The position numbers and the translations under genes are program-made. Shown in pieces: positions 3,301 to 31,332 of a DNA stretch of 32,756 nucleotides (the first letter of the stretch is position 1; the number at the start of each line of letters is the position of its first letter). The notes beneath the pieces were generated by a model. That model was not told where the DNA came from, searched no databases, and was given only the letters and a program-made list of their open reading frames with translations. Source of the stretch: Saprospiraceae bacterium (GTDB lineage: Bacteria; Bacteroidota; Bacteroidia; Chitinophagales; Saprospiraceae). The stretch lies in assembly GCA_020628085.1 (NCBI GenBank), contig JAHDFQ010000009.1:1-32756 (forward strand). The letters are read 5' to 3'.

Positions 3301-5708
3301 GCTGCATCTCCACAAGCATCTGTTGCTGTTGGTGCATTTAATGTTCCAAAGAAGAAACAATTATCTGCACTTGAGCTAGATGAGTTTAATGTTAATGGAT
3401 TAGCCATTGTACTACCTGGCTGCGCATCGTCAGTTGTTGCATCGTTATCTGGATCGCTATTTGGACAATTTGTCCATACTGGAGCCGTTGTATCTATTGT
3501 TTTAATAATCTGTGTGTATTGATTTAAAGCAATACTTTGTGTACAGTTTGGTCCTGCTGCATTGAATGGTTCACAAGCATTTACAATGTTACCAGTACAC
3601 CAATCTAATACTGTCCATTCTCTAATGAATTTTTGTGTATCACCACATAAGTCCAATAGTGGAATATCATTAAAAATTACAGAGTATTTACAAGAAGAGT
3701 GACTTCCGTCGATCAATGGTCGAACAACACCTAAGTTATCAACAAAGTGCGGTACAAATTGTGGGTTAATTGCTGCTAAAGTTGCTGCATCTACGCCAGA
3801 AAGGCATTCTAATGTGTCTATTAATGGAATTGGTGCATAGATAACACTTGGTCTGAAGAAGTAAGCAAATGCTCTACAAGAAACAGAACCGTTTCCTAAT
3901 ACATCTGAAATTTGCCATGTTCTAATAACAATATTATCTAATGTAAATCCAGTACCTGGGTTTTGACATGGTAATGGAATAAAGATTCCGTCCGCTTCAA
4001 ATACATCAATCAATCCATTTGAGTTCCCGTCTGTTAAGCTAATTGCTGAACCTTCGTACATTCCACAAGAACCAAAAGCTTGATCGAAAATAATTGTATC
4101 ATTTGCTAAACCTGTACAGTCGCTAAATACTGGAGGACTTGTAAATAAATCATCTACTTCAACTCCGCAAAATCCAATATAACACTCTTCTTCTAGTACA
4201 CATGTAGGGCCTGTTTTGTCTTCAGCGTTCACTGTTCCCCAGCAATAAATTCCTGATAAAACGCCACCTGGTGCAAATTCTACTTTTACAGTGTATGTAC
4301 CCGGGCTGCAAATTACATTATCATCAAAGCCAACAATCGTTACAGCGTAATCATCATCATCTAAACAAGGTGCTTCAATAATCATATCAGCAGTAATCGC
4401 TACTTTACAGTTAGGTCCTAAAGTAACGTTCACCTCATCATTACAAACCATTACTGGCTCGATAAATACATTCTGTGTACGTTGAACCATATTTCCTGCA
4501 CAGTCCATTACGCTATAAGTGATGAAGTAACTACCTGTTGCAAATGGCCCAGTATAAGTCACCATTTGACCTGGTTGTCCTGTACTTCCCATCACTGTAG
4601 GAGTTCCTCCAGGCAAATCAGTTGCAGTGATAGTAATTGTGTTTTGACATGGTCCTGAAACGGCTGGAAATTGAACGGTAATAGCACTTGCATTACAACT
4701 TCCTCCGTTATCCGCAGCACTGATATAGATATCTGGTTCTACGGTCAATTCGCATTCTTCACAATTAACAGACAGTGTCCATGGTTTCCAATCCGCTTCG
4801 CAAGTGTTTCCATGTACTTGAGAATTTACATTCAAAAATACTTCATTATCCAAAGCCAAGTAACTCATGCTAACACAAGTTTGCCCGTTTGATGATACTG
4901 GTGTTGTTGAAATAGCTGCTAAATCAGTAGGTGTTGTACCTGATGATTCTGCTCTATCCAACCATAAATCCATTAATGGATAAATATCAGAAGTTACTCC
5001 ACAGACTTCAAAGGTATAAAATGAACCCGTGTTTAAAGCAAACCCGTAAGTACCACCAGAAACAATTGTTCCGTTATAGATGTCATCATCACAATCAGCA
5101 GTCAATAGACTTACATAGTCTCCATCTTCGGTTTCTCTTATACCGTTGTTATTAACATCTACATAAGGGTTGCTACCTGTAACTACACCTACTGTTTCAT
5201 CGTCGCTTGATCCGTTGGTATCCGCTGGATGATCGCAATATGATTCGCTTGCATCTAGTGGACCTTTAACCACATTTACAGCTTGTGTACAATTCTGTGT
5301 AGGAGTACCTGGACAACCATCTACCTCATAAGTTATAGTGTATGAACCTGTTCCTAAACCAGAAGAAATTACAAAACCCGATCCTGTAATAGTAAAAGGT
5401 AGTGATCCTGGTAATAAGTTTGCAGGAATACTTGTTGAAGTCACCACTAAATCTCCAGTACATGATCCTACTGATGGTGTTGGTACAACAGTATTTGACT
5501 GCGTTGCATTTGTCGAAATAGTCTCCGTAACGTCCGCCGCACATGTAATCTGTGCTTGTATATTTGTATTTCCTAGTATAAAAATCGCTAGTATCAGTGT
5601 AAATAATTTTCCAATATTAGTACACGCTCGTAGTGTATCGGGGATACTGGAATCCCATGTTTGTGTAGTGCTCCATGCTGTTGTCGGGAGCGACTGACTG
5701 TGTTTCAT
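306..5708 (-). CDS. Giant secreted surface protein: HYR-like repeats, dockerin-like and cohesin-like modules, T9SS sorting domain
   Basis: An 1800-residue secreted protein. Residues 1-34 form an unusually long polar N-region before the hydrophobic signal core (about 35-52, ending NTNIQA). The body is Cys-rich and built of repeated beta modules with HYR-like signatures such as DKIGPFLTCPADVTITC, and repeated R-x-WTV-x-x-W-C strands. Near the C-terminus come a regulatory-like beta module (about 1390-1442), a dockerin-like calcium-binding pair (about 1443-1505, DVNNNGTITTADI), a cohesin-like module (about 1572-1710) and a type A T9SS sorting domain (1717-1800: QNQPNPFSNET, YDVEGRELR, final KKMIVIK). 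It is expected to cross the outer membrane by T9SS and be held at the cell surface or released. HYR modules usually mediate adhesion, but the ligand is unknown. It is monocistronic, with its own terminators and four copies of a 10-bp repeat upstream. Its dockerin segment closely matches that of the protein at 29734-31332. Confidence 0.94.
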   Translation of the reverse strand: MKHSQSLPTTAWSTTQTWDSSIPDTLRACTNIGKLFTLILAIFILGNTNIQAQITCAADVTETISTNATQSNTVVPTPSVGSCTGDLVVTSTSIPANLLPGSLPFTITGSGFVISSGLGTGSYTITYEVDGCPGTPTQNCTQAVNVVKGPLDASESYCDHPADTNGSSDDETVGVVTGSNPYVDVNNNGIRETEDGDYVSLLTADCDDDIYNGTIVSGGTYGFALNTGSFYTFEVCGVTSDIYPLMDLWLDRAESSGTTPTDLAAISTTPVSSNGQTCVSMSYLALDNEVFLNVNSQVHGNTCEADWKPWTLSVNCEECELTVEPDIYISAADNGGSCNASAITVQFPAVSGPCQNTITITATDLPGGTPTVMGSTGQPGQMVTYTGPFATGSYFITYSVMDCAGNMVQRTQNVFIEPVMVCNDEVNVTLGPNCKVAITADMIIEAPCLDDDDYAVTIVGFDDNVICSPGTYTVKVEFAPGGVLSGIYCWGTVNAEDKTGPTCVLEEECYIGFCGVEVDDLFTSPPVFSDCTGLANDTIIFDQAFGSCGMYEGSAISLTDGNSNGLIDVFEADGIFIPLPCQNPGTGFTLDNIVIRTWQISDVLGNGSVSCRAFAYFFRPSVIYAPIPLIDTLECLSGVDAATLAAINPQFVPHFVDNLGVVRPLIDGSHSSCKYSVIFNDIPLLDLCGDTQKFIREWTVLDWCTGNIVNACEPFNAAGPNCTQSIALNQYTQIIKTIDTTAPVWTNCPNSDPDNDATTDDAQPGSTMANPLTLNSSSSSADNCFFFGTLNAPTATDACGDAAITYSAEVYNTNNGLDYIIQDLSQPAQIGFGLRRVVFIATDDCGNRAECPIFYNVLDDDQPIAICDQFTTVSLTNAQNGGARICADNLDSGSYDNCAITSRTVRRMDADEATPFTDCIDLTCADAANSPIMVVMRVADAAGNFNDCMVEVEVQDKIGPFLTCPADVTITCTDDINDLALTGNVVVGTSPATLGGGFTFDNCGETLQPTYQDDLVNLACGAGVVTRTWTVDSNGSTVSCQQSITITSINSFRVEFPRDTTITTCTSPDQLGDFGAPIITNDICAQVGVGSTDVQFDVVTGACYKILRTWTVVNWCNYDDESLLNTASGNPVDGLDLTFDDDGDGFFRYTQVIKVQDAVAPVFSPYVGQTAFLNTTDECGGTVNIQVAANDSCSDDISYEYLIDANNDSTFEPSLSGTGPAVDPTVVFPYGTHRVLFVAEDGCGNTASQEIVFSIADNKAPSIACKHLSVTLMPQVNMIELWASDYVEMSGVLDNCTPTEDLVYGIIRESESDQVTPPTGTNITFDCTDLQVDTNGDGIPDDAPISAEVEVEIWIGDTDGNWTFCTATTTVFANDDGCDPNPDDARVMVAGNLKNEFGNDLEDVTIEISSEASMWDYTTENDGHYEIDELPMYTDFTVTPENDTNPLNGVSTYDLVLLSQHILGINELDSPYTMIAADVNNNGTITTADIVELRQMILYITSDFQNNKSWRFVDASFVFPDQTNPFTTSFPEVRNLSALENNAMAENFVGIKVGDLNGDAVANSILGAEDRNLVGAFTMKANDQLVAAGEEVTLTLTSEDLATVEGFQFTLNFDATALEFEEVGNSDLVGFTAGNFGYSFLNEGVLTASWNKVADVEDANQVVELIFTAKDDITLSEVISLSSRYTKAEAYDSDMNDMNVGLEFNTTNGTVITAAGFELYQNQPNPFSNETSIGFTLPEAAQASLTIYDVEGRELRVITNSFAKGYNQFTVDNKNLVGGVLYYRLDTPTHSATKKMIVIK

Positions 5709-5743: not shown

Positions 5744-5829
5744 ATAGTGTTTCTAAAAAAAATTAAATAGTGTTTCCAAAATTGATACTTTTTGATAGTG
5801 TTTCAGGCTCCAAAAAGTCATACTGTTTC
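5744..5829 (-). repeat. Four spaced 10-bp direct repeats upstream of the surface protein gene
   Basis: ATAGTGTTTC occurs exactly at 5744-5753, 5767-5776 and 5795-5804, and as ATACTGTTTC at 5820-5829 (minus strand GAAACACTAT). Start-to-start spacings are 23, 28 and 25 bp. The first copy is 36 bp before the start codon of the minus-strand gene. The arrangement resembles iterated binding sites for a regulator; that role is inferred. Confidence 0.6.
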
Positions 5830-5847
5830 ATAGATTAGGGGTATTTT

Positions 5848-5952
5848 GAACAATGTTATTCATCTATGAGAAATAGCATTTTTTATCCTTTATCTATTCC
5901 TTTCGAATAGCCTCCTTCGAAGGACGGATCGTATATGAATTGTTCTTTTTTT
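5848..5952 (+). ncRNA. Candidate branched structured RNA ending in a T-run
   Basis: A long-range stem closes the element: 5848-5853 with 5940-5945, 5859-5863 with 5935-5939, and 5865-5869 with 5929-5933 (16 pairs, one U-G in plus sense). Inside are a hairpin at 5894-5910 (CTATTC/GAATAG) and the palindrome TCCTTCGAAGGA at 5913-5924. Seven Ts at 5946-5952 follow the closing stem, as in an intrinsic terminator read on the plus strand. No clear TAnnTTTG promoter is visible upstream, and no known RNA family was recognised. Confidence 0.35.
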
Positions 5953-6321
5953 GTTTAGTAATATTAATTTTAGCCCTTTCTATACCGTATTTTATCTTCG
6001 TTCTTTATTAATCGGGCAATACTATATCAGGCAATTGATCTACCATTGAGTAGACATTGCAATGTGATTTACGTAATCCTGATTCAATAAAGTACGTGTA
6101 ACGAATCAAAAACCTGTGCTAAGAAACTTTATAATACTGTATTTTGGGATACCATTTCAAAAGCTTCGATCTATTCATTCTATTCCAACACTTCGTTATT
6201 ATTTTGAAATAAATGGGGGCATTATATTCCAACCTAAAAGAGATACAATTATCTTTTTTAGTAATAAAAAACAGTACTGAAAGTAAAAAATTAGCTTGGT
6301 TGACGACCAATGTAACTAATA

Positions 6322-6553
6322 TCTGTGTGTAAATATCCAATCTATGTAATGCGCCAGTAAAATCTGCCTACCGTCTAAGCTGATCTATGGATTGACGACG
6401 TAATCTTATACCGATAATTCAATCGGTCTCCTACTTTTTACACTATTTATAAATAGTCATTAAAAAAGTATTCACAAGTAAGGGAGATAAATAAATTCAA
6501 ATGGGGGAATTGAATGTATTTATTACTTCTAAAAATTACTCTGTGTGTAAATA
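6322..6553 (+). repeat. 14-bp direct repeat inside the gene-free region
   Basis: TCTGTGTGTAAATA is found exactly at 6322-6335 and 6540-6553, 218 bp apart. It is the longest exact repeat noticed in the gene-free stretch and suggests that parts of it are related by duplication. Confidence 0.6.
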
Positions 6554-6703
6554 ACTGCATTTTTACGGTTCTGTGGAGACATAACGAGTTCTGTCTACCA
6601 CCTTGTCTTTTGCGGTAAAATTGAAGTAGTATAGATCATATAAAAAATATGTACCACACTTCTTCCGTATAGCAAATCATTGCTTTAATCATATTCTGAC
6701 TAG

Positions 6704-6786
6704 TACAACATGGTGTTACTTTAGACACTTATGGTAAAAGCGATCACGTAAACGCTCGTAGCATAAGGTAAAGTAACTTTGTTGTA
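6704..6786. repeat. 83-nt extended imperfect hairpin
   Basis: Four stacked helices share one axis: 6704-6710 with 6780-6786 (7 bp), 6715-6723 with 6769-6777 (9 bp), 6728-6733 with 6762-6767 (6 bp) and 6739-6742 with 6753-6756 (4 bp). They are separated by small internal loops and capped by a 10-base loop, for 26 pairs in all. A second hairpin follows directly at 6794-6821. No T-run follows on either strand, so it is not a simple terminator. Confidence 0.7.
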
Positions 6787-7295
6787 ATAGCTGAATAATA
6801 GCAATCGTATTGCTTATTATTAAAATGTAAATTCAATAAATGAAACCGTAGTACGGTGCATACGTTGGGCATGCTACGCCTACTACTTTAGGGTCGTCAA
6901 AGGTCGGTTACGGGATGGGAATAAACTGTCTTTATAAAGATCAGTCTACCTTTTGCCAGTTATAAAAAATCTGCTGGCTCATTTTTTTGATAGAAAAACT
7001 ACGAATAATTTGTCTACCGTTTTCGGTTTAAATCAATTAATCTATAATATATTACTTGATCTTTACTAGAAGGTTGCATGATATATTAAATATTAATTTC
7101 ATGTTTATAATTGCAATCTCCATGCCAATTACACTTTAAATTAAAATATATGTATAAATATTTATAATATGTTTGTGGTTTTTTGCAGCGTCTATTGTTT
7201 TGACAAGAAAAATATATAAAAAAATCAAAGTAAGAATTACTATGATTTTACACATGCAATTATTTTGATTGAAATTGAATAGCTCTTAAACGACA

Positions 7296-7328
7296 AAAGG
7301 GAGTAATTCGTACTGAATTACTCCCTTT
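7296..7328 (-). terminator. Terminator of greA
   Basis: A perfect 14-bp stem (7296-7309 with 7315-7328) and a five-base loop lie 26 bp after the greA stop codon. A short T-run follows on the minus strand. Confidence 0.75.
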
Positions 7329-8190: not shown

Positions 8191-9231
8191 CTATAATGCT
8201 AATCGAACGCCAAAATTGTGTGTTCCGCCCCAAGGATTAGAAGCTCTATAAGCATAGTCGATACCAATTTTACGATCACCACCTTTTTTAAATGGCACCA
8301 TTACACTCAACCCACCGCTCAATCCAGTGTATACATTATCTTCAATTCCTCCGTTCTGTCCTTGACCGAATGTATATTTATATCCACCACGTAACATAAA
8401 CATTTCGTTAAGTGCGAATTCTACACCTGCACCTAGTTGATCTTGAGAGAAGGAATTAGAAGTAAAGTTTCCGAGTACTGTAATTCTTGACTTATCTAGC
8501 AAAAAGTCATAAGATGTTCCTATATGCAATATAGAAGGTAATTCAAAGTCCGAAGCTCTTCGGTTAAAGGTTAATTGTGTTCCATCACCGTTAACCAATT
8601 GTTCTGACAAACCTTCACCACCAAACTCCATTGGTGAACCTACGTTACGAAGAGAAATACCGAATTTAAAGTTATCTTCTTCTCCAGCTACATACTGTAC
8701 ACCTGCATCAATTGCAAATCCAAAAGCATTTAAATCTGCTAATGATTCAGAGATTACCCGTACTAAAACCCCTACGGATACCTTGTTTTCAAATTGATGG
8801 CTGTAACCAAGTCCTATATTTACCCAAGCAGGAGAATAAGTTGCTCCTGTACCTTCAGGTTGGTCTTCAGTTGTAACAGCGATATCTCCAAAATCGACTG
8901 CCATGATACTCACACCAAATGCCCCTCCATTTTTGGTTTTCTGACTTAAACCAAAAGCATTCATTTGTATATCTGTACCCTCTAAGTAGATTGCACTACT
9001 AAAAAGTACTTCTGTTTTACCCGTCAATCTTGATAATCCAGCAACATTTAAGCGCATAGATTCGACGCCTGCAATACCAGCTGTGTTCATGGTGTGTAGA
9101 CCTGCGCTTTTCGCCCAAGGATTCATTAATAATTCGTAGGCTCCTGCTTCACCTTGACGATCTGGATTTCCAGCAAAAGCACTAACTGAAGTTAATACTA
9201 TACCTATTATTAAATATAAAATTTTATTCAT
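8191..9231 (-). CDS. PorV/PorQ-family outer-membrane barrel protein
   Basis: A 346-residue outer-membrane beta-barrel of the PorV/PorQ family. In characterised T9SS systems PorV collects substrates at the SprA translocon and delivers them to the attachment complex; the role of this paralogue is inferred. The signal peptide is residues 1-20 (MNKILYLIIGIVLTSVSAFA). Just after it comes the family signature GEAGAYELLMNPWAKSAG, then GVESMRLNVAGLSRLTGKTE, followed by alternating amphipathic strands to the end (FGVRLAL). I chose the ATG at 9231; a start 11 codons upstream would put a charged extension before the signal peptide. It is the last gene of a three-gene cluster with the receptor and the KWFG-tail protein, and a hairpin lies in the gap before it. 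Whether it is the cell's general PorV or a dedicated shuttle for the neighbouring protein cannot be told from this window. Confidence 0.92.
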   Translation of the reverse strand: MNKILYLIIGIVLTSVSAFAGNPDRQGEAGAYELLMNPWAKSAGLHTMNTAGIAGVESMRLNVAGLSRLTGKTEVLFSSAIYLEGTDIQMNAFGLSQKTKNGGAFGVSIMAVDFGDIAVTTEDQPEGTGATYSPAWVNIGLGYSHQFENKVSVGVLVRVISESLADLNAFGFAIDAGVQYVAGEEDNFKFGISLRNVGSPMEFGGEGLSEQLVNGDGTQLTFNRRASDFELPSILHIGTSYDFLLDKSRITVLGNFTSNSFSQDQLGAGVEFALNEMFMLRGGYKYTFGQGQNGGIEDNVYTGLSGGLSVMVPFKKGGDRKIGIDYAYRASNPWGGTHNFGVRLAL

Positions 9232-9379
9232 TGTTCCGATTTTGAATATTAAGTAATGGCACAAAATGATTTCAGTTATGCACTCTTTTATTCTAATTTC
9301 ATCTAATCTATTGTTATAAATTATAATGACTACTAATAAAAGAAACTGAATTTATTTATTTTACTTGCCTAATTCAAAC

Positions 9380-9418
9380 AGGAGATGTCGTCTAGATCAA
9401 AACTAGAAAACATCTCCT
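9380..9418. terminator. Two-step hairpin between the KWFG-tail gene and the PorV-like gene
   Basis: AGGAGATGT (9380-9388) pairs with ACATCTCCT (9410-9418), and inside it TCTAG (9391-9395) pairs with CTAGA (9403-9407). It begins 14 bp after the upstream stop codon. A T-run (9418-9423) follows on the plus strand, although no plus-strand gene ends here. On the minus strand only GTTTG follows, so partial termination, RNA processing or 3'-end protection within the cluster are all possible. Confidence 0.6.
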
Positions 9419-9432
9419 TTTTTATAATATTA

Positions 9433-12400
9433 TTATAATCCAGATGGATCAAATTGACGTGCTACACCAAACCATTTGACGACACGTTCTCCTAATTCAC
9501 CAGCATCAATATGTATCAAGTATACACCACTAGCTACAGGAATGGCACTCTTATTTCTCAAATCCCATTCAATAGCTGGATTAATTTGACCACTAATTAC
9601 ACCTCCATTGGAAAGACCCTTATTCATCTCTACTTCATCTCTTCGGTATTGACGGATAAACTGACCATCTAATGAGTATATAGTTACTGTACATTTCGCT
9701 GGTAGGTTAGTAATTTTAACTACGTTAGAGAATTGTGAAATTTCGTAAGAAGAATATCCATAATACGGATTTGGTACTACATTAATGGCATCTAATTGCT
9801 CGTCATAATCTGCTTGAGTTGAATTTGGATCTGCTGTTTTACCCGTTAAACTAAACTCGTAAGCTGGATAGAAATTATTAGATCCACTTCCTTCATCTTT
9901 TGCTATTGAGTAAGGGCTATCTACCCTTAATTTGATGGTTACATCATTTGGAATCAAACCAGTATCACCACTTCCAAGTTCATCCAATTCAGATTCAACA
10001 TTTACAATTGGAATACCAGCCCACTTAATAGATTGGTAGGCGTCCCTTCTAAGGATTGGTAAATTATTCGTAATTGTTTCTCTTATTTCTGCACATTCAT
10101 CGTACTCAGTATCTGTTACATATATATAATGTTGTGCTCCAACTAAAGCGTTGTAGGGTCCAAATCCACCTGCTCCTGTATCCAAGAATAATTGCGAAGT
10201 TGGATTCCACATCATATCTGCCCCAGTTGCAACAAAATTATCATATTTACCTACAGTATTATCGTCTGGATCACAGAATAAATCCAATCCAAGATCAGGG
10301 TCGCATCTGAATGTTGAATTTTCACCAAAGAAAATATTCAGACGTTTACCAGTTTCTACATCAATTGCGTATCCTGGAAACCAACCCATACCTGTCATGC
10401 CTCCATCTTCATCAGCTAAACCATCACCGTCATTATCAAATCTACCGACAGAAGGACTTTCGCGTAAGTCTAAATTCTGTGCGTCTCCAACTGTTGGAAT
10501 AGCACCAGGGTTAATATTAGAGTCATAGTAAGATGGAGATGCGGTTTCTACCACAATACATCTACTCCACTTTGATTTGTCTGATGTTAAAACAATATCT
10601 ACATTGTTTAATGAATCTAACGGATTTTGTAATGTTCCAGCTAGTGTATTAACCCATCCTGGTGTGATTGCCTGTGTGGATGTTCTATATTCTGTCAGTG
10701 CAAATGGTGAGAACGTTCTTGTACCGATGTTACTCAAAGAAGCTGTTGGATCGAGATCAGAGTACAATTCGCCATTTCCATTTGGTATATAATTAAACAA
10801 ACCACCACCAAATATTTGTGCATCATCGGGAATCCAATTGAACCAATCTTCACCATTTGGATCTTCATATTCAACTGTCTGTCCAATTGCACCAGTTGTT
10901 GGATCAATTAAATCACCTGCTTCATTAGATTGTCCCAATGTGATTGAGAATCCATGGTCTACAATTAGCTGCTCATTTAAACGTGAAATATCTATTTCAG
11001 ACATCACTTCAAAATCAGGATCATCATTCTTCGTTAGTGTCCATGTGTTACGACCATCTAATTCATCTATTCCCACACCTATAGTCGAACCTTGAGACAT
11101 TTGTAAGGTAAACGTTCCATCTTTTACATTTCGTGGATCGTATACTTTAACTTCAATTGGTGCAGCACCTGGCTGGTATGTAATTTTTCCATCAAAATTA
11201 CCCTCTTCATAATCATTTAAGATGGCGTCTAAATCTGTTTCAGAATAGTCTATTTCTAAGAAGTTCTCACCTGTACCAGAACCGTCTAAACGTGTTACGA
11301 TAGCACCGTCACCATAGAATGTATTCAATTCTCTATCATTAATTGGTCGTGGAATAACCGTATATGTCTGAATGTTCCGACGTCCTTCTAAGTATGAATT
11401 TCTCTGACCAATCTCCGTTGTCGGATTAAACTGGCTATAGTTGTTATATGCGTAAGCAATAGTTAGGAAGTAGTATTTCTTATGATTGATTAACCGTGTA
11501 TCAGATGTTGCAAAACGATCTTGAGTAATACGGAATGTATGACGTACACCTTCATCGTTACCTTCTACTCTTAAATTTGGTGTCCATACATTATTTGGAA
11601 TGTCTCCTATTCCTGCATTAGGATCAGGGTTGGGCTGAGAAGTCCAGTTGTATATTTCGCTAACACCATCTTTAATATCAACTTGATATACGATTTGAGC
11701 TCGAGAAGGATCATTCAACTCACCTACGGTGACTGTTGGACTCACTAATTGAAACACTTTATATCCTTGAAAAACATATAAATCATCTACGCCTTCTGGT
11801 GCTTGCAAATCTTTTTCCTCATAACTTTCATTAAAGTTATTAGAATTTAATTCGTTAGATAAAGTAAAGATTAATTCTTGATCTAATTCGATGGTACATA
11901 AGTCTGGAGCATCCGGTCCATCGGTAATGTCAAAACAGTTATCAAATAGTGATTGTGCTAACCCATCTGCATTCAATAATGCGGAAATATCTGGTTCTGG
12001 ATGATCGACATTAGGTACCCATGGCACTCCAATAATTAGCTCATTGACGGCTCCTGGGTCTAGACGAAGTGGTCCTGATGCTTGTACAGTTCTTCTATCT
12101 CCAAAACCCAAACCTTCTTGCGCCATTGACCATCCATTGATATCGTTTGGAGGATTAGGAAATACATAATTAACTGACATAATACCGCCGTATCCATTAC
12201 CTCCATCAGTAAAAGGTGTACCATCTCTCCAAGTACCCGTTAAATAGTTATAATACTCCGTACCAGTTTGCGGATCTGTTGTACCAGGTAAAGGGGTACC
12301 AGTAGCTCCATTATTATAATAAACAAAGGAGGACATGCCCAATTCAATTATAGTATCTGGAAAAACTCCTAGAGGTGGGTTTGTAAAAATAGTATCACCA

Positions 12401-13584
12401 GGTACTGATAAAGTATCTATTAATTTAGGCCCTAATGGACCTCTAAAATAATCTACCCCTAAGATTGGAACTTCATCACAATAAGTGTTGACTCCTTGTG
12501 GACAGTTACAACTACCTGCCTCACCATCTAGTGCATCTTCATTATAAACATACATTAAACTACGATCAACATCACAACCGACATAATCATCTAAATAACA
12601 ACCTAAATCTGGATCAACCCACATAGCAAAATAGGTACTGTCTATAGTCTCTACTGCTCGGTTAATTAGTTTATATCTTTGGAAAGTCATATCATTCAGC
12701 TGATCATTTGTTGCATACGCAAATGCTTGTACTTGAATTTCCATCTGAATCGCATCAGCGTTGGTTTCGGTGTGTACCCCACCTGCGTCATTATAAATCC
12801 AAAAATACATTTGATCTGGATATTGAGGTTCGGTACAACCCCGAATTTCAATAATTGGGTAATCACCTGTTTCTGGTTCATAGATACCATCTCCATTCTG
12901 ATCCCAGAATGCTCCCAAACCTTGAGAAGTATTTGGTAGTTCAAAGTTATGGATACTAAAAAAGTCTTTGTTTCCTCGTGCTGGCCAACCTCTGATATCC
13001 TCAGTAATGACAGAAGCATCAAATAATTCGGCTGCTAATTCATTCAATTCAGCTTCCGTACAATCAGGACAAGATTCGCTTGCTTCGGCTAAAGCTGCTT
13101 CAAAGGCACTAACATGAACATCAATGTTTTCACCTAGAACCTCAAACATCTTATCCCAATCTGCACATGTTTCTTGATCTACTGTACCAGTTTCTGGATC
13201 TAATGGGCCAGGAAAAAAGTCAGAATCTCCTGAACTTCTACCAAAAGTCTGTGCTGCAATTTTCAAGTTACCAGCAGGATCGACTCCTCCAATCCAAACG
13301 GCACCGGCAAAGATAGATGATACAGGATCGACTCCATCTGGTACTTTAGGAACAATGTATAATCCATCGTCTCCATTCCACCAAACATCACCACCTACTT
13401 GAAGTCTGGCACGTACATTATTAATATCTTGATCTTCTTGAGCCGTTGATCGAGCACAGTCCATACGGAAACTGGCATGCGGGTTTGTCCGCTTTTGATG
13501 AAGGTCTGGGTTGATATGCGCTTGAGCCTCTAAAAAGCTAATAAAGCAAATCAAAACAGCCACTAAATATTTAATATTATTCAT
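9433..13584 (-). CDS. Large secreted protein with a non-canonical T9SS-like C-terminal domain ending in a KWFG tail
   Basis: A 1383-residue exported protein. The signal peptide is about 1-22 (LVAVLICFISFLEAQA). An N-terminal beta region contains WWNGDDGLYIVPKV and IFAGAVWIGGVDPAGNL (about 68-115). A calcium-loop-like DQNGDGIYEPETGDYP is at 228-243 and DNDGDGLADEDGG occurs further on. The last 117 residues (1267-1383) resemble a type A T9SS sorting domain: VVPNPYYGYSSYE, CTVTIYSLDGQF, then ASGVYLIHID. Instead of stopping at a final Lys-rich strand, it continues through RVVKWFG (KWFG at 1370-1373) to a ten-residue tail. No catalytic signature was recognised. It sits 141 bp after the TonB-dependent receptor and 201 bp before the PorV-like gene on the same strand, so the three products may work as one outer-membrane assembly (inference). 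Proteins with this architecture are, from memory, widespread in Bacteroidota and relatives but functionally uncharacterised. Confidence 0.92.
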   Translation of the reverse strand: MNNIKYLVAVLICFISFLEAQAHINPDLHQKRTNPHASFRMDCARSTAQEDQDINNVRARLQVGGDVWWNGDDGLYIVPKVPDGVDPVSSIFAGAVWIGGVDPAGNLKIAAQTFGRSSGDSDFFPGPLDPETGTVDQETCADWDKMFEVLGENIDVHVSAFEAALAEASESCPDCTEAELNELAAELFDASVITEDIRGWPARGNKDFFSIHNFELPNTSQGLGAFWDQNGDGIYEPETGDYPIIEIRGCTEPQYPDQMYFWIYNDAGGVHTETNADAIQMEIQVQAFAYATNDQLNDMTFQRYKLINRAVETIDSTYFAMWVDPDLGCYLDDYVGCDVDRSLMYVYNEDALDGEAGSCNCPQGVNTYCDEVPILGVDYFRGPLGPKLIDTLSVPGDTIFTNPPLGVFPDTIIELGMSSFVYYNNGATGTPLPGTTDPQTGTEYYNYLTGTWRDGTPFTDGGNGYGGIMSVNYVFPNPPNDINGWSMAQEGLGFGDRRTVQASGPLRLDPGAVNELIIGVPWVPNVDHPEPDISALLNADGLAQSLFDNCFDITDGPDAPDLCTIELDQELIFTLSNELNSNNFNESYEEKDLQAPEGVDDLYVFQGYKVFQLVSPTVTVGELNDPSRAQIVYQVDIKDGVSEIYNWTSQPNPDPNAGIGDIPNNVWTPNLRVEGNDEGVRHTFRITQDRFATSDTRLINHKKYYFLTIAYAYNNYSQFNPTTEIGQRNSYLEGRRNIQTYTVIPRPINDRELNTFYGDGAIVTRLDGSGTGENFLEIDYSETDLDAILNDYEEGNFDGKITYQPGAAPIEVKVYDPRNVKDGTFTLQMSQGSTIGVGIDELDGRNTWTLTKNDDPDFEVMSEIDISRLNEQLIVDHGFSITLGQSNEAGDLIDPTTGAIGQTVEYEDPNGEDWFNWIPDDAQIFGGGLFNYIPNGNGELYSDLDPTASLSNIGTRTFSPFALTEYRTSTQAITPGWVNTLAGTLQNPLDSLNNVDIVLTSDKSKWSRCIVVETASPSYYDSNINPGAIPTVGDAQNLDLRESPSVGRFDNDGDGLADEDGGMTGMGWFPGYAIDVETGKRLNIFFGENSTFRCDPDLGLDLFCDPDDNTVGKYDNFVATGADMMWNPTSQLFLDTGAGGFGPYNALVGAQHYIYVTDTEYDECAEIRETITNNLPILRRDAYQSIKWAGIPIVNVESELDELGSGDTGLIPNDVTIKLRVDSPYSIAKDEGSGSNNFYPAYEFSLTGKTADPNSTQADYDEQLDAINVVPNPYYGYSSYEISQFSNVVKITNLPAKCTVTIYSLDGQFIRQYRRDEVEMNKGLSNGGVISGQINPAIEWDLRNKSAIPVASGVYLIHIDAGELGERVVKWFGVARQFDPSGL

Positions 13585-13648
13585 ATAAAATGATATTATT
13601 CTAATTAAAAATTACTTAATAATTGATTAATTAGTTATTAGTTATAAT

Positions 13649-13687
13649 AGTTATTCAATTTGATTCTGTTTTACATTTTGAATAACT
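13649..13687 (-). promoter_or_regulatory. Hairpin between the receptor gene and the KWFG-tail gene
   Basis: AGTTATTCAA (13649-13658) pairs perfectly with TTGAATAACT (13678-13687) across a 19-base loop. It lies 38 bp after the receptor stop codon. There is no T-run, so it is more likely an RNA processing or stability element than a terminator. Confidence 0.4.
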
Positions 13688-13725
13688 GTATCACTAGGAT
13701 TCTTAGTAATTTCTTATTGTATTAA

Positions 13726-16700
13726 TTAAAAATCAAATATAGCTCCTACATACATACGACGTGGAATACTGTAAAAATCAGGGTTAAGCATTGCCCAGTT
13801 ATATGCGTCTTGGAATGCTTCCAAACTACGTGTTTCTGAGCGAACTAAATCCTGAATAGCATCTAATCCATTAGCTGATGTTAAATATCCATCATCTTCT
13901 GGAGAACCCGTTGCTGAATATACTTCGATTACATTTCGTACATCAAATAAGTTCTGTACACGGAAATAGACATTTAAGTTCAACTCACGCTTAGCATCTG
14001 GTTTTGATAAGGTGAAGTTCTTATCTAAACGAAGATTTACCCAATAATTCCAAGGTTTACGAGCACCATTTAATGCTCCACCAATACTAGTACCACCTAA
14101 CTCATCTGGAAGATTATTGACTGTATATGGACGACCTGAAACGGCTGTTGCTTGTATATTTAAACCTGCATTTGCAAAAATATCACGCCCAGCAACTCTT
14201 GGTCCATTGTATCTTTTACCAGAACCATAACGATAATCAGCAATTACATTTAAACGGTGACGCTCATCAAAATCAAGGGGAAACAATGTTCTAATATTAC
14301 CTCTATCACTTAAACCTGCTTGAGAATCTGCATCTGAACCCGTTCCATCTGCAAATTGGAGTGTATAAGAAGCATTTAATTGTAAATTATTCGTTCTTCT
14401 CATATCATATTGAAAAGAGAAAGCTTTTACTGTACCAAAATCTTGATTGTCATAACTTGTATATGTTCCAGCAGGAATACCTGCAACTTGTAGGTATGTA
14501 CGACGTTGGATCATATCTCTTAACTCTCGGTAGTAGGCTGAAACATTTAAAGCTGAGGTATTAGATAGTTTTTGCTTAAAACCAACTTCATATGTGATCG
14601 TTCGTTGTGGTTTCAATCCTGGATTTCTGTATAATGTACTTGCAGCTCTATCTGCTATAAAGAAATAATCCAAAGCAGTACCTCTTGCCTGTCCAGAACC
14701 TGGTCGTTGAACCAAAATATCATAATTGGCATAGAAGTTTGCTTCATCAGAAATAGGAAAAGAAAATGCTAAACGTGGCATCCAATTGATTTGAGGAGCA
14801 TAGTCTTCAAAAGAATTGTTAGGATCAAAATCTTCTGATTGAATATTGTTATTACGCTCTTCATATAATTGAGGTGTGATCAAACCATTTTGACCAAAAA
14901 TTAAATTCCCATCATTAGCTTGTTCACCGTTTGCAAAATACCATTGTTCGTCATCTCTAAATGCTCTTACTGTACGATTATTTCCACTTCCACCATCTAC
15001 GTATACCTTATAATCGTCACCAATAGTAGATGGGCGATCTCCTGCATCATATTGAGCGTAAAAATCATTGGCATTCATAATTTCATATAAAGAGAATTCA
15101 TCCTTTAAAACTTTGGTGTTGGCATCATAACGATCTACACGAAGACCTAAACGGAATATAATATCTTTATATTGGAACTTATCTTGAATGTAAGCCGCAG
15201 AGTAAATAGGTGCAAATGCAGCTACTGGTAATGTACGTATGCCCTCTTCATTTCTTGCTGTAAAAAAGTCATCAAAAGTTACATCGTTAGCCAATTTGTT
15301 ACCCAAATAATCATATCCTGTATATTCTAAATCAATACCTGTGTCATTTACTAATTCTCGAGCAGAAAACATATCTAATGATAGTTGACTAGGGTCGAGT
15401 GCATCTACATTTACAAATTCTGTTAAAGATTGTCCCGTTGCCTCTCTAACTTTTCTTAAAAAGGTACTATTTTGAAAATCTTCTGTTCCTAAATTAGTAT
15501 CCGCACTAAAAGAACCTAATTCTTGGCCTTGTAGTTGATCAAAATATACGTTTTGAATAACTGTTTCTAACTGACTAGGATCTGTTATGGGAAAACTTCC
15601 ATTTGGTGATAAAGGGTTAGTTGATGTCAAGTGTGCATTAGATAAACTTCTTGCCAACAACCATAATTCAACAGGATTTAACGAGTGTGATCGTATAAAT
15701 CTTTGCTCATATAAAATACCAAACTGTACGCTATGACGTCCCTTTTCTGAACTTCCTCCAGGAACTAAGTCAAAAGAACTGTTTACATTGAAAGTATAGT
15801 AATCGTTGTCTTGCTTTCTAGCGAAATCATACACACGCCCAACATTATTATGTAAGTCCCATATAGACTCTACATTATTTCTAAATTCGCCATTTACAAC
15901 TAGATAGTCATTAAACGTTGCATCAGTGTCTTCACCAATAACGTTATTGTAATTAGCTAAGACGGGGTTACTACTATTAGAAAAATCTACACCTGTAAAA
16001 GTCTCAGCATAATCTGTATGCCCAACAGTATCAATGCTTTCTGTAAATTCATTAAAAACTTCTGTTATTTGTCCTTCGTTTATCAAGTTAGATAATAATG
16101 TATCCACATAACCAGGATTATTCTCTTCCTCTTGTTGATATCTATTTCTAAGCGATTCTGCACCAATAATACCCACAACAGGTGTCCACTCTCTGTTAAA
16201 CGTTCCAACATGTCCGTAAGCAAAATAATCATTACCGTGACGTTGATCAGATCGTTCGTTTAAATTTCTTTCATATCCAAATTGAAGGATATAAGAAGCA
16301 TTTCGAATAACCGATTGTGTTTCTTCTTCACCGGCTACTTTTGCACCACCTAAACGGTGACGGAAACGGAAATTACCTCTATAACGAGTATTGATATCAG
16401 TTGGGTTATTGTGATTATTGAATACTCTGTTAAAATTTCCATCAGTAGTATAGTTACCTGGGGTAAACTGATTTTCATTATTAATATAAGAACCGCTTAA
16501 TGTGATATCAATTGCATCACTTAAACGAGCATCAAATTTAGCCGTTAAATTTAAATCGGTACTCCTTTCATTTGGATTTGCATTCAATACCTCAATATCT
16601 TCGTTTGTCACAAACTCCGCTGCTGGTAGAAATCCGTCATTTACTTGAACAACAGGATTAGCTTCTAATTCAGCTAATTTTTCACCTGTTACTTGATAAA

Positions 16701-17577
16701 CAGGTAGCGCTGGAGGATCATCATCTTGTAAATCTAAATATTGACCAGAAAAACGGAAACCAAGAATAGTTTCACCTGTTGCATCTCCATTTGCATCTTT
16801 CTTTTTGATGATTGGTCCACTAACATTTGCACTTAATAGGTTATAGCCAAAGGCATCCAAATATTCAGATGTCTCTGCTTCTATTCCTCCTCTAAATTCT
16901 GATGAAGGGCCTTTTGAAGTAATGGAAATAACTCCACCCGTCACATCACCATATTGAGCAGCTACACCACCCGTAATCACTTGCAACTGTTCAATCTCTG
17001 ATTGAGGTGGTAGGTTGTTTGCACGAACACGAATACCATCTACATAGTAATCGGTCGATTCTGCACGTGAACCACGAACAGTCAAATCTGCTCCATCATC
17101 AGAAGAACCAATACCCGCAGTGTTGGCCGCTAGACCATTAATGTTCTTTGTAGGTAATGTCTTAATCTGCTCGGCTGTTACAATTCCCCCTTGAGTCGTG
17201 TTATCTTGCTCAATCAACGGAACAACGTATTCCACTACGACGACTTCTGTTAGGTTGATTCCTACACCTAATTGTATATCCAAGTTGTTTGCTTTATCTG
17301 CATAAAGTACAACACCTTCGATTCGTTGTGGTGAATATCCAACATAAGATGCTTCCACGTCATATGTACCTGGATCAATGTTTGTGATATTATAATTTCC
17401 GTCGAAATCGGTTTCGACTCCCGTTATAAGCGTACCATCTCTGAAAAGTGCCACATTCCCAAAGAGGATGGGTTCTCCATTATCTGCATCTGTTACACTT
17501 CCCTTCAAGGAGGTTTGTGCCATAGCAATGGTACTGGTTAGCATAAATGCTAAAATAATAAGTAAATTACGTGCCAT
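13726..17577 (-). CDS. TonB-dependent receptor with N-terminal carboxypeptidase-regulatory domain
   Basis: A 1283-residue outer-membrane receptor energised through TonB; the substrate is unknown. Residues 1-20 are a signal peptide (LLIILAFMLTSTIAMA). Residues 22-103 form a carboxypeptidase-regulatory-like beta sandwich (GSVTDADNGEPILFGNVAL, GVETDFDGNYNI, YVGYSPQRIEGV). A TonB-box-like run EVVVVEY is at 111-117. The plug domain is about 126-222 (LTVRGSRAESTDYYVDGIRV, GGVAAQYGDVTGGVISITSKG). The remainder is a large barrel ending in aromatic RRMYVGAIFDF, as expected for outer-membrane assembly. It is first in a minus-strand cluster with the KWFG-tail protein and the PorV-like protein. No SusD-type partner is beside it, which argues against an ordinary glycan-uptake pair. 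It may act in assembly or signalling for the secreted neighbour rather than nutrient import; that is inference. Confidence 0.94.
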   Translation of the reverse strand: MARNLLIILAFMLTSTIAMAQTSLKGSVTDADNGEPILFGNVALFRDGTLITGVETDFDGNYNITNIDPGTYDVEASYVGYSPQRIEGVVLYADKANNLDIQLGVGINLTEVVVVEYVVPLIEQDNTTQGGIVTAEQIKTLPTKNINGLAANTAGIGSSDDGADLTVRGSRAESTDYYVDGIRVRANNLPPQSEIEQLQVITGGVAAQYGDVTGGVISITSKGPSSEFRGGIEAETSEYLDAFGYNLLSANVSGPIIKKKDANGDATGETILGFRFSGQYLDLQDDDPPALPVYQVTGEKLAELEANPVVQVNDGFLPAAEFVTNEDIEVLNANPNERSTDLNLTAKFDARLSDAIDITLSGSYINNENQFTPGNYTTDGNFNRVFNNHNNPTDINTRYRGNFRFRHRLGGAKVAGEEETQSVIRNASYILQFGYERNLNERSDQRHGNDYFAYGHVGTFNREWTPVVGIIGAESLRNRYQQEEENNPGYVDTLLSNLINEGQITEVFNEFTESIDTVGHTDYAETFTGVDFSNSSNPVLANYNNVIGEDTDATFNDYLVVNGEFRNNVESIWDLHNNVGRVYDFARKQDNDYYTFNVNSSFDLVPGGSSEKGRHSVQFGILYEQRFIRSHSLNPVELWLLARSLSNAHLTSTNPLSPNGSFPITDPSQLETVIQNVYFDQLQGQELGSFSADTNLGTEDFQNSTFLRKVREATGQSLTEFVNVDALDPSQLSLDMFSARELVNDTGIDLEYTGYDYLGNKLANDVTFDDFFTARNEEGIRTLPVAAFAPIYSAAYIQDKFQYKDIIFRLGLRVDRYDANTKVLKDEFSLYEIMNANDFYAQYDAGDRPSTIGDDYKVYVDGGSGNNRTVRAFRDDEQWYFANGEQANDGNLIFGQNGLITPQLYEERNNNIQSEDFDPNNSFEDYAPQINWMPRLAFSFPISDEANFYANYDILVQRPGSGQARGTALDYFFIADRAASTLYRNPGLKPQRTITYEVGFKQKLSNTSALNVSAYYRELRDMIQRRTYLQVAGIPAGTYTSYDNQDFGTVKAFSFQYDMRRTNNLQLNASYTLQFADGTGSDADSQAGLSDRGNIRTLFPLDFDERHRLNVIADYRYGSGKRYNGPRVAGRDIFANAGLNIQATAVSGRPYTVNNLPDELGGTSIGGALNGARKPWNYWVNLRLDKNFTLSKPDAKRELNLNVYFRVQNLFDVRNVIEVYSATGSPEDDGYLTSANGLDAIQDLVRSETRSLEAFQDAYNWAMLNPDFYSIPRRMYVGAIFDF

Positions 17578-18053: not shown

Positions 18054-19007
18054 TCATGTTGTCTTTGTGTACAAATCCTTTATTTTTCTTAACAAAATGG
18101 CTGCTAATCGTTCTTTAGATTCTACTGTCCATCCTGCTACATGTGGCGAAAAAATAGTGTTTTCAAAAGCGTATAATTGATCCAATAAAGCATGTTCTTC
18201 CGCTGTAAAAGTCGCTGTTTTTTCATTTTCAAACACATCTAAACAAGCACCTATTAGTTTACCTGATCGCAATCCATTTATAAGTGTTTGAGTGGGAATT
18301 ACTTTTCCTCTAGAAGTATTTATTACAACTATATCTTTTTGAAAATGAGTAAAGTATGTATCATCTGCCAAGTGTATTACTTCGGGAGTCAATGGCAAAT
18401 GAAAACTCAAAACATCTGATTCTTGATAAATTTTTTCCATTGTAGATTCTTCTACAAAGTCCAAATGATCGGCATAATTTTCTTTGTATTTGTCATAAGC
18501 CAATACACGAACATCCATCCCTTTTAATTTTTGGGCAAAAGCATTTCCTGTGTGTCCAAATCCAATGATACTAACTGTTTTTCCAGCAATTTCAAAACCA
18601 CGACAGGCTTCACGATTCCATTTTTTTTGACGCACCATTTTGTCGCCTAGACGCATTTTATTTGCTAAAGCTAACAACATTCCGAGTGCATGTTCACCTA
18701 CTGCATTACAATTTCCATCGGGTGCGCTAAAAACAGCTACTCCTTTTTGAGCGGCATATGTTTGATCTATAATTTCCATTCCTGAACCCAATCGTCCCAG
18801 AAAACGAAGATTTGATGCCGCATCGAACATTTGCTGATCACAGATCGTTTTGCTGTTAATAATCATACCCTCATATTCATACACCATTTTGCGTACTGCC
18901 TCTAGTACAATTTTGGGGTGATAATCGACATCAAATCCCATTTCTTTAAAACCAGAAATTAAAAGTGGGTGAACATCATCCGTTATCAATACTTTTCTTG
19001 CTATCAT
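18054..19007 (-). CDS. D-isomer-specific 2-hydroxyacid dehydrogenase (SerA/phosphoglycerate dehydrogenase-like)
   Basis: A 317-residue NAD-dependent cytoplasmic oxidoreductase that interconverts 2-oxoacids and D-2-hydroxyacids. The substrate cannot be read from sequence; 3-phosphoglycerate or hydroxypyruvate are usual for this class. The nucleotide-binding Rossmann domain is inserted in the catalytic domain, with IIGFGHTGNAF at 147-157 and an acidic end of the second strand (YDKY). The catalytic Arg is R233 in NTSRGKVI. The Glu lies in LDVFENE (260/262) and the His is H289 in SPHVAGWT. There is no C-terminal ACT regulatory domain, so this is the short form. The start at 19007 gives the normal N-terminal strand ARKVLITDDVHPLL. 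It is transcribed away from the lipoprotein gene at 19099 and separated by 476 bp from the receptor gene, so it is probably its own unit. Confidence 0.93.
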   Translation of the reverse strand: MIARKVLITDDVHPLLISGFKEMGFDVDYHPKIVLEAVRKMVYEYEGMIINSKTICDQQMFDAASNLRFLGRLGSGMEIIDQTYAAQKGVAVFSAPDGNCNAVGEHALGMLLALANKMRLGDKMVRQKKWNREACRGFEIAGKTVSIIGFGHTGNAFAQKLKGMDVRVLAYDKYKENYADHLDFVEESTMEKIYQESDVLSFHLPLTPEVIHLADDTYFTHFQKDIVVINTSRGKVIPTQTLINGLRSGKLIGACLDVFENEKTATFTAEEHALLDQLYAFENTIFSPHVAGWTVESKERLAAILLRKIKDLYTKTT

Positions 19008-29733: not shown

Positions 29734-31332
29734 CTATCCCACATCTCCGACCTTCACCCCTATAAAGTTAATTGGTTCTTGTTCAGAACTGAAATTTTCA
29801 ATTTGAATTTCTTCTAAGAAAGGAGTGTCAAATGGGTTGAGTGGGTTGTCAAAAGTCTGATTGACATCAAAAAACCGCCAACTCTTTCCACTTGGTAATT
29901 CTGCAATACTCGCTAAAATTAATTGTCGGAGAATGATAATATCTAATGTCGTTATATTCCCATCTTCATTGACATCAGCGGCAATCATTTTGTAAGGATT
30001 TTCTATGATTTCACTTGCCAAAATATGTCTCGACATTAATACTAGATCGTAGGTTGATACACCATTCAGATAGTCGTCATTTTTAGTAACACTAAGCGTG
30101 TAATCTTGTTCTAGCACTACATTTTCAAATAAAAATGATCCGTCTTCCGATAATTGATTTTCCACAGTATCACCACCAAGTGTTACTATAACAGGAATAG
30201 TATCGCCCTCAAGCGTTTGTACATTACCTGTAAGATCACCTACTTTACATTCTATAACAATTGTTTGCTGGTATGGATCTAAATGTTGCCCTGTACACCA
30301 ACTGAATACAGTCCAAGAGCGAAATATTTTTTTTCCTAGTACTGTTGGCAATATCAAATCTTCATAAGTATAGCTTAGATCACAAAGTCCGTGTAAATCC
30401 TCTGTTAGTGGGTAACATCCATACGAATAAGGAAGAAGATAGTTTTCGTCAAAATTGTTGATATTATCGCAAGTGATAGTATCATTTGGTGGTAGCTTCA
30501 AGTCGTTCAATGCTGGTGTAATTAGTCCAACTACTTGCGTACAAGTTTCTATATTTCCGTTCGTTCGTTGTATTTCAAAAATACGTTCTATTTTAGCTCC
30601 GTATGGTAATTCATCTTGGTTACAACCTGTTTCTACAACTTGTTCACTCGTTAATTCAACTGCTTCAACGAGTGTTGGCTCAAGAATTTCGTAAGGTACA
30701 GGAAAACCCATTTCAAAGTTGATCTGTGCAGACAGAATCCGCCCTGTTGTGTTGTCAGGGTTTGTAATTTTCAATATCCAATTATCTTTAAATTCTCCTG
30801 CACTTCTTCCATTAAGTGTGGATAATGTTCCAAATGGATTATAAGTTCCTGTTAGCGTTCCAGTATTATTTTGACAGGCATCATTGAACGATTGCAATGC
30901 AGATTCATCAAAAACCACATCTAAGTCTAAAGCCGTTCCTGTGTTGCAGCTACTCGGTTCTATCAAATCAAGTACTAATAAAGGTGGCAATTCGTTCAAA
31001 AATGGGTTTAAGTTTTCAATGGATAATCCGATTTCTAATCCTTCGGGATTACTATGTTCTACTGCTAACTGGATGGTCATATTTTGTATAATTCCACAAG
31101 GAATATCAAAATGCAATTCGTTTAATCCAGATTCGAGTTCATATGGTAAGGGTTCGATTATATTTCCCGTTTCATTTTGTATTCCAAAATTCTCATTCAA
31201 TACATTAGGGTTGGTACAAGGAATATCATAATCTACGCAAACAACGGTTTGAATTTGTCCAGACATAGACAAGTATCCAAAGCAGCAAAATATAATACAA
31301 ATAATACGAATGGCTAGGCGAAGTGTGTGCAT
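29734..31332 (-). CDS. Secreted P-domain/dockerin-like protein lacking a T9SS sorting domain
   Basis: A 532-residue exported protein with signal peptide about 1-25 (LAIRIICIIFCCFGYLSMSG). Residues about 66-208 look like a proprotein-convertase P-domain (QLAVEHSNPEGLEIGLSI, TGTYNPFGTLSTLNGR, DNWILKITNPDNTTGRIL). Then come Cys-containing HYR-like segments (RSWTVFSWCTGQ at 339-350), a regulatory-like beta module (about 365-418) and a dockerin-like pair (421-486: NGVSTYDLVLMSRHIL, AADVNEDGNITTLDI). The dockerin part closely parallels the 1800-residue protein at 306-5708. It stops at FIGVKVGDVG, where the larger protein runs on into a cohesin-like module and the sorting domain. No sorting domain is found in any frame before the convergent CPBP gene. 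It may be a truncated relative, or it may be exported to the periplasm only. No protease domain is present. Confidence 0.9.
   Translation of the reverse strand: MHTLRLAIRIICIIFCCFGYLSMSGQIQTVVCVDYDIPCTNPNVLNENFGIQNETGNIIEPLPYELESGLNELHFDIPCGIIQNMTIQLAVEHSNPEGLEIGLSIENLNPFLNELPPLLVLDLIEPSSCNTGTALDLDVVFDESALQSFNDACQNNTGTLTGTYNPFGTLSTLNGRSAGEFKDNWILKITNPDNTTGRILSAQINFEMGFPVPYEILEPTLVEAVELTSEQVVETGCNQDELPYGAKIERIFEIQRTNGNIETCTQVVGLITPALNDLKLPPNDTITCDNINNFDENYLLPYSYGCYPLTEDLHGLCDLSYTYEDLILPTVLGKKIFRSWTVFSWCTGQHLDPYQQTIVIECKVGDLTGNVQTLEGDTIPVIVTLGGDTVENQLSEDGSFLFENVVLEQDYTLSVTKNDDYLNGVSTYDLVLMSRHILASEIIENPYKMIAADVNEDGNITTLDIIILRQLILASIAELPSGKSWRFFDVNQTFDNPLNPFDTPFLEEIQIENFSSEQEPINFIGVKVGDVG

Follow-up and report, generated by a model that had tools for sequence, protein, structure and literature searches.

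Two surface proteins of the type IX secretion system (T9SS), PorZ and PorU, keep their C-terminal domains (CTDs), which excerpts of three studies describe as not removed and as held by PorQ and PorV, respectively (PMC5562754, PMC11285876, PMC10202324); an excerpt of the last also puts forward that CTDs are shielded from cleavage by cognate barrels of PorV type (PMC10202324). For type B CTD substrates, pairs of CTD protein and shuttle encoded by adjacent genes are reported in part of a further paper (PMC12618676), and the partial texts of two more describe BamG:BamH as a FadL-type barrel that holds a surface subunit of the β-barrel assembly machinery (BAM) (PMC12611786, PMC12578637). Here we describe a locus that combines a candidate for such a pair with a receptor, found in a stretch of 32,756 nucleotides from a Saprospiraceae bacterium (assembly GCA_020628085.1, contig JAHDFQ010000009.1, positions 1 to 32,756), referred to below as the window. 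It consists of genes for a TonB-dependent receptor (TBDR), an exported protein of 1383 residues that we call KWFG, and a barrel of the PorV/PorQ family. We consider it nearly certain that the three form a functional unit and, on balance, we favour the view that they make up one outer-membrane uptake complex that works like SusC-SusD and in which a T9SS-exported lid is parked on a dedicated barrel. The parts are each known; their combination, spread and multiplication appear to be new, as our searches of open-access papers turned up nothing in titles or abstracts that describes them, so that the remark in an earlier note on this DNA, that no function has been described for the trio, stands within that scope.

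The open reading frame (ORF) coordinates bear out what the earlier note had said of the gene order: on the minus strand, the receptor gene (13726..17577, 1283 aa) is followed after 141 nt by the KWFG gene (9433..13584), and this after 168 nt by the ORF of the barrel. The latter was listed as 9264-8191 (357 aa), but most relatives start where an ATG lies at 9231, which leaves 201 nt between the genes and gives a protein of 346 aa (8191..9231). A terminator-like hairpin on the same strand, with 19 predicted pairs, lies 75 nt past the last stop codon (8115-8075; ΔG −24.7 kcal/mol for a folded piece of 60 nt, z −8.5, none of 200 shuffles equally good). A simple same-strand terminator scan, which missed this hairpin too, returned no site between the genes of the trio, in agreement with the single final terminator previously supposed. 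The receptor had also been described as lacking a SusD partner, and no SusD was found in a Pfam scan of 17 of the 25 window ORFs of at least 100 aa, the direct neighbours of the receptor included.

Evidence for a unit comes from the neighbourhoods of KWFG homologs. We fetched 180 loci, which are best matches and not a random draw (a few were entered twice, L033/L134 and L135/L178), and set aside 16 with fewer than 300 bases on one side at the end of a contig or stretch. In 160 of the 164 loci testable on both sides, KWFG lies between its two partners, with order and strand as in the window: 23/24 in the set of relatives, 71/73 in the titled set, 6/6 in a further set, 37/37 in other classes of the phylum and 23/24 in the class of the source genome. 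Two of the exceptions are tandem copies (L035 and L124), one comes from a genome with further matches (L208) and one is unexplained (L105). The proposal that the trio is one unit is thus upheld, and the possibility that the homologs usually occur apart is refuted. The three proteins have also diverged together. In a mirror-tree comparison of 42 loci (38 of 80 were left out for not having all five full genes), evolutionary distances correlated with rho 0.78 between KWFG body and barrel, 0.85 between body and receptor, and 0.84 between barrel and receptor, versus 0.44-0.52 between trio members and the flanking dehydrogenase and GreA, GreA being short and the dehydrogenase similar in length to the barrel.

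KWFG is widespread, and matches over nearly its full length occur in the taxonomic order and the class. Of the 40 genomes in the relatives set, 38 gave a match (E≤1e-5; the source genome and hits to the N-terminal domain alone included); 22 of the 40 carry one near-full-length match in a single piece and one carries two. With at most two candidates scored per genome, samples of 396 genomes from the class and 392 from across the phylum gave matches in 309 and 115, respectively (E≤1e-20); one family of the same taxonomic order, f17, had none in the 14 genomes listed. Among the best 80 of 583 confirmed loci, labels as deposited are mostly Saprospiraceae/Saprospirales; Neolewinella, Membranihabitans and metagenome bins under the names of Saprospira, Aureispira and Chitinophaga pinensis (three) also occur. 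Neolewinella agarilytica DSM 24740 (L102) and Membranihabitans marinus (L059) are cultured relatives with the trio. All 115 KWFG-bearing phylum genomes have a PorZ match (114 at E≤1e-49), compared with 180 of the 277 without KWFG; KWFG is therefore seen only together with the T9SS, and the T9SS does not need KWFG.

The barrel belongs to the PorV/PorQ family, as had been supposed, and goes with KWFG in the relatives. It scores 125.3 bits against the family model NF033709 (cut-off 90) and stays below the cut-offs of the more specific models for PorV (NF033710, 59.8 of 250 bits), PorQ (NF033711, 69.4 of 220) and PorV2 (33.6 of 325); it passes the Pfam family PF11751 (PorP_SprF) narrowly (25 bits, cut-off 22.3) and has no match to the BamG model at E≤1. 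Its only significant relative in the PDB is PorV of F. johnsoniae (6h3i_F), and it has a conserved mature N-terminus, AGNPDRQGEAGA (9139..9174, minus strand). In a tree restricted to unmasked sequences of 290-460 aa, a single group of 61 (support 0.92) contains all 58 KWFG partner barrels used; its remaining members (L301, L311 and L317) have KWFG-type neighbours as well. The KWFG partner barrels are a clade of their own. A group holding all trio barrels, including 34 of the 36 from the further trios described below, had weak support (0.65) and 13 other barrels inside it.

The window barrel is moreover an extra one. The assembly (5.0 Mb, 96.7% complete) encodes PorU on contig C88 (1286 bits, cut-off 420) with a partly masked PorV-family gene behind it (family score 315 bits), PorQ on C243 (382 bits, cut-off 220) and PorZ on C101 (551 bits, cut-off 260), and this disproves the alternative that the barrel of the trio is the only PorV of the genome. 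Because of the canonical PorZ, and of the PorZ match in every KWFG-bearing phylum genome, we also rejected KWFG as a substitute for PorZ. Four partial KWFG paralogs of about 580 aa each, three in tandem on C15 and one on C184, cover KWFG residues ~34-549; the two that were scanned have an ordinary TIGR04183 domain at the C-terminus (51 and 43 bits), and neither a TBDR nor a PorV-family gene stands beside the four in the stretches fetched (only 9.2 kb for C184). The N-terminal domain has thus been re-used, and only the form with the odd C-terminus adjoins a receptor and a private barrel.

KWFG has a signal peptide recognized by eye, and a check by eye of 20 aligned sequences for the cysteine expected of a lipoprotein revealed none at the cleavage region. 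It has no Pfam match at E≤1, and no solved homolog was found by sequence. An anti-phage role was set aside, as PADLOC gave no match for KWFG or the barrel. AlphaFold2 models built from our own alignments of 62 sequences reached for residues 36-760 a predicted local distance difference test (pLDDT) of 90.1 and for residues 560-1383 of 87.9, with a predicted template modelling score of 0.87 for both. Residues 41-553 (11926..13464) are modelled as a domain resembling the supersandwich found in enzymes of glucoamylase, phosphorylase and GH116 type (9ju0, Z 18.5, root-mean-square deviation 3.3 over 254 aligned residues). Those enzymes bear a separate catalytic helical barrel, which KWFG does not have. 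Residues 560-760 (11305..11907) weakly resemble FN3/Ig-like domains (best Z about 7; an fn3 Pfam match in 3 of the 62 sequences). No fold was named for residues ~760-1255, which the fold searches barely reached. That a family is absent from the fold lists is no evidence.

The C-terminal domain of the model (residues 1258-1375; 9460..9813) is the known Ig-like CTD fold of T9SS proteins, as judged from the predicted structure, and resembles PorZ and PorU most. PorZ (5m11) was the sole Foldseek match at E≤0.001, and Z scores were 11.3 for PorZ (25% identity over 92 residues) and 9.2 for PorU (6za2), against 7.8 for mirolase, 7.3 for NucA, 6.9 for RemA and 6.6 for RgpB; other Ig-like entries in the list had 6.4-8.3 (Vpr 8.3). 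Among NCBIfam models it is likewise that of PorZ, NF052228, that sees this domain best, with 25.6 bits (cut-off 260) confined to residues 1255-1370 of the window protein, and 59 of the 62 sequences matching at E≤0.01. The PorU model NF033707 has no match in the window protein and touches 22 of the 62, and no sortase domain matched the window KWFG at E≤1. Regarding substrate models, 48 of the 62 sequences match the type A model TIGR04183 at E≤0.01, and the type B model TIGR04131, which we assume to be present in the library, is not among the matches of the window KWFG at E≤1. Past the last strand of the CTD lies a conserved tail, VARQFDPSGL (residues 1374-1383; 9436..9465), whose R1376 is shared by all 103 sequences of the taxonomic order reaching that far and D1379 by 102 of them; in the model its pLDDT is low, and it forms just a short predicted turn instead of a strand. 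By eye, KWFG ends about nine residues later than ordinary CTD proteins of the same genome, and 29 of 38 sequences from other classes end in F. The tail as a general pairing signal was ruled out, given that 34 of the 36 further trios end without it.

The receptor carries a CarboxypepD_reg domain at residues 23-103 (17269..17511; PF13620, E 5e-17, 62 bits) and a Plug domain at residues 132-216 (16930..17184; PF07715, E 4e-9, 37.3 bits, cut-off 23.9), and its profile matches PDB receptors of Cir, PirA and FepA type in their plug regions. Between the two domains, inspection by eye located the segment LTEVVVVEYVVPLIEQD (residues 109-125; 17203..17253), which is a putative TonB box and whose core, P[LIM][IV], is present in 57 of 59 aligned receptors, that of the window among them. 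The SusC/RagA model TIGR04056 has no match in the window receptor at E≤1, and six trio receptors from other classes reach 59-80 bits where the cut-off is 368. The earlier note had considered that the receptor might act merely as plug, sensor or anchor. The plug and the conserved TonB-box-like segment that it keeps, the absence of STN- or FecR-type signalling domains from its Pfam scan, and the multi-copy trios of SusD-poor genomes, which fit an uptake complex better, all speak against this, though indirectly. Elsewhere in the genome (C30, L229:3918-5909) we observed a 663-aa protein whose first ~200 residues (CarboxypepD_reg and Plug) are 74% identical to the window receptor; VWA and T9SS sorting domains follow, making it a plug without a barrel on a secreted protein.

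The same arrangement recurs with other CTD proteins in other classes. Over 21 genomes, PorV-family matches number 3-6 per genome in the class and 8-21 in the nine genomes from other classes, with 14-21 in each of four (G187, G053, G069 and G211). We fetched the surroundings of part of these matches (18 in G187, 14 in G069, 14 stretches in G053, 6 in G174 and 8 in G211), which yielded 61 barrel genes over threshold in five genomes, KWFG trios already counted being left out, and added twelve loci from the class; L276, L321, L329, L330 and L331, where the barrel profile gave nothing above 100 bits, were not included, and the GC-rich neighbourhoods of G069 were annotated profile-first. Of the 61 barrel genes, 36 lie in trios of TBDR, CTD protein and barrel (12, 9, 9, 4 and 2 per genome); a receptor but no CTD protein accompanies 5, a CTD protein only accompanies 4 (one being canonical PorV), and 16 have neither. 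No such trio was found around the 8 PorV-family genes examined in the class. The 36 CTD proteins measure 615-1290 aa, one of them (L301) being a second KWFG copy, and 23, L301 included, match a KWFG body profile without the CTD at E≤1e-5. Against a profile of the tail-less KWFG CTD, the CTDs of the 36 score 29-111 bits (median 68), values partly selected, as a score above 20 was required to call a trio. Among 25 other CTD-like proteins nearby, three barrel neighbours score 79-129 bits, two others 31 and 34, and 20 no more than 25; PorU of the source genome scores 21. In the same 21 genomes SusD (PF07980) matches number 0-37 within the class; of the nine others, with their 8-21 PorV-family matches, five have no SusD match, the one with 12 further trios among these, and the remaining ones have 1-6. 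Two loci (L262 and L285) have a variant order, hinted at in two more (L293 and L313): CTD protein, T9SS protein, a protein of ~530 aa, receptor and barrel. The ~530-aa proteins of L262 and L285 have no Pfam family, and that of L285 has a lipoprotein-like signal by eye. They could be SusD-like subunits.

As for the surroundings of the KWFG trio, the recurring neighbours within the taxonomic order are most often serA-like, greA and HIT genes, which are not informative on function. The serA-like dehydrogenase lies upstream in the window (18054-19007), and an example from another class (L185) is full-length with an ACT domain. In 13 loci of other classes a protein is encoded 3′ of the trio (e.g., L177:1989-4226 and L185:11185-13389); two that were scanned have multihaem-cytochrome and TPR matches, and the 13 were grouped as multihaem-cytochrome/TPR lipoproteins. 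Downstream of the trio, between greA and a gene for a T9SS-tailed protein of 1800 aa with Cohesin and Dockerin matches (306-5708), the window has ~1.5 kb (~5760-7300) in which no ORF reaches 100 aa. Dockerin matches are also present in the product of another gene (29734-31332), which shares a 44% identical segment with the 1800-aa protein.

We propose the following mechanism. KWFG would be exported through Sec and the T9SS translocon, after which the neighbouring PorV-family barrel would take it up through its PorZ/PorU-type CTD. Rather than being handed to PorU for cleavage and attachment to lipopolysaccharide (LPS), KWFG would stay uncleaved on the barrel; that it is parked on its private barrel in this way seems probable to us. 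Once parked, it may serve as an extracellular substrate-binding lid in contact with the neighbouring TBDR, a role in uptake for which we see about even odds. Receptor, lid and anchoring barrel would then act like SusC and SusD, the surface lipoprotein being replaced by a lid that the T9SS delivers, and the order-wide KWFG trio would be one member of a trio family multiplied in SusD-poor genomes of other classes.

Several observations weigh against this reading. Mirolase, whose CTD is cleaved, is in part of one report also closest to PorZ and PorU (PMC11285876), so that a ranking of folds is no proof of non-cleavage. The CTD of the window KWFG scores below the cut-off of TIGR04183 (14.1 of 23 bits), and in the mirror-tree the CTD alone, which is short, follows the barrel (rho 0.62) less closely than the KWFG body does, and no more closely than it follows the receptor (rho 0.63). 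With respect to uptake, the supersandwich fold predicted for the N-terminal domain is no proof of sugar binding, and no CAZyme or transport gene is prominent among the recurring neighbours, most clusters of which were named by eye only. As regards the wider family, 13 of the 36 further CTD proteins show no body homology to KWFG at E≤1e-5, nearly all end without the tail, and CTD scores overlap at the low end (31 and 34 bits for ordinary proteins, 29 for the lowest trio protein). The correlation between SusD and PorV-family matches (Spearman −0.59 over 21 genomes) is largely a class split, with −0.51 within the class (p 0.09) and −0.13 within the rest, and the SusD counts rest on one Pfam model, PF07980. 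Finally, the source genome has 6 SusD matches itself; here the trio therefore adds to SusCD.

Some of the findings would suit a third attachment-type complex, in which KWFG and its barrel, like PorU:PorV and PorZ:PorQ, serve surface biogenesis (processing, or the handling of lipid or LPS) with the receptor as partner or client and not as an importer of nutrients. The resemblance of the CTD to PorZ and PorU, the restriction of KWFG to sampled genomes with a PorZ match, its housekeeping-like single near-full-length copy in 22 of the 40 relatives-set genomes (one with two) and the precedent of BamG:BamH all point that way. Nevertheless, we consider this unlikely, since the source genome already has PorU with a PorV-family gene behind it, PorQ and PorZ, leaving nothing to replace; 180 PorZ-bearing genomes of the 392 do without a KWFG match, and 12 further trios in one genome are better suited to substrate-specific transporters. 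It seems similarly improbable that the barrel is only a private carrier, a dedicated shuttle as in PorP/SprF, with KWFG cleaved and released or linked to LPS and the receptor merely co-expressed. Published adjacent pairs for type B substrates and the TIGR04183 matches of most KWFG sequences speak for this, but the receptor is kept with the pair in all 37 other-class loci testable on both sides and in the 36 further trios, and it is the receptor whose distances track the KWFG body best. A conserved neighbourhood without any physical complex, due to shared regulation or a frozen ancestral order, is very improbable: gene order is indeed slow to change here, with a flanking serA-like gene in 58 and greA in 62 of 120 loci, but the trio stays in 40 loci of other classes of which just 10 still have the serA-like gene and one the greA cluster, the correlations with flanking genes are lower in the mirror-tree, and the further trios repeat the order elsewhere.

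Taking the uptake complex as the preferred reading, we tentatively suggest that there may be a second superfamily of TonB-dependent uptake complexes in Bacteroidota, parallel to SusCD and defined by a T9SS-exported lid and a dedicated PorV-family barrel; one member would be class-wide, though missing in some families, and in SusD-poor genomes of other classes the trios would have multiplied to a dozen per genome and replaced SusCD. If this is true, PorV-family barrels gain a stable anchoring role besides shuttling cargo to the sortase, and the 8-21 PorV-family matches of some genomes are explained. It would also suggest how SusD-poor Bacteroidota may build two-part uptake complexes, allow the published proposal on the shielding of CTDs from cleavage by cognate PorV-like barrels to be put to the test, and give context to many genes named "hypothetical" or "PorV/PorQ family".

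Among known systems, PorU2/PorV2 (NCBIfam NF052324/NF052325) is similar to the trio in that a further protein of sortase type and a further one of the PorV family are named; unlike these, our barrel is far from the PorV2 cut-off and KWFG is without a sortase match. BamG:BamH shares the FadL-type barrel that holds an extracellular subunit, as proposed for the trio, but BamH is a surface lipoprotein and the window barrel does not match the BamG model. As in the type B substrates of F. johnsoniae with their PorP/SprF shuttles, the gene of the carrier barrel lies directly downstream and the barrel passes PF11751; in contrast, the CTD of KWFG has the type A/PorZ fold, the barrel matches the PorV/PorQ family better (125 bits) and the unit includes a receptor gene. 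Also similar are PorU:PorV and PorZ:PorQ, where a CTD-bearing surface protein is paired with a PorV-family barrel, the CTD folds are the nearest to that of KWFG and, for PorU-PorV, the genes are adjacent (as on C88) in the way of KWFG and its barrel. The trio differs from them by the added receptor, a separate barrel clade, a KWFG without sortase-domain or full-length PorZ match, and the lack of any KWFG match in many T9SS genomes. From SusC-SusD (RagA-RagB) it is set apart by receptors that score below the SusC model, by an exported protein with a T9SS-type CTD and no lipoprotein signal seen, in place of the SusD-family protein that was not found, and by a PorV-family barrel as third gene. 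Like SusC-SusD, it has a TBDR with an N-terminal CarboxypepD_reg domain and plug whose gene adjoins that of an exported protein, and it is present in multiple copies in some genomes.

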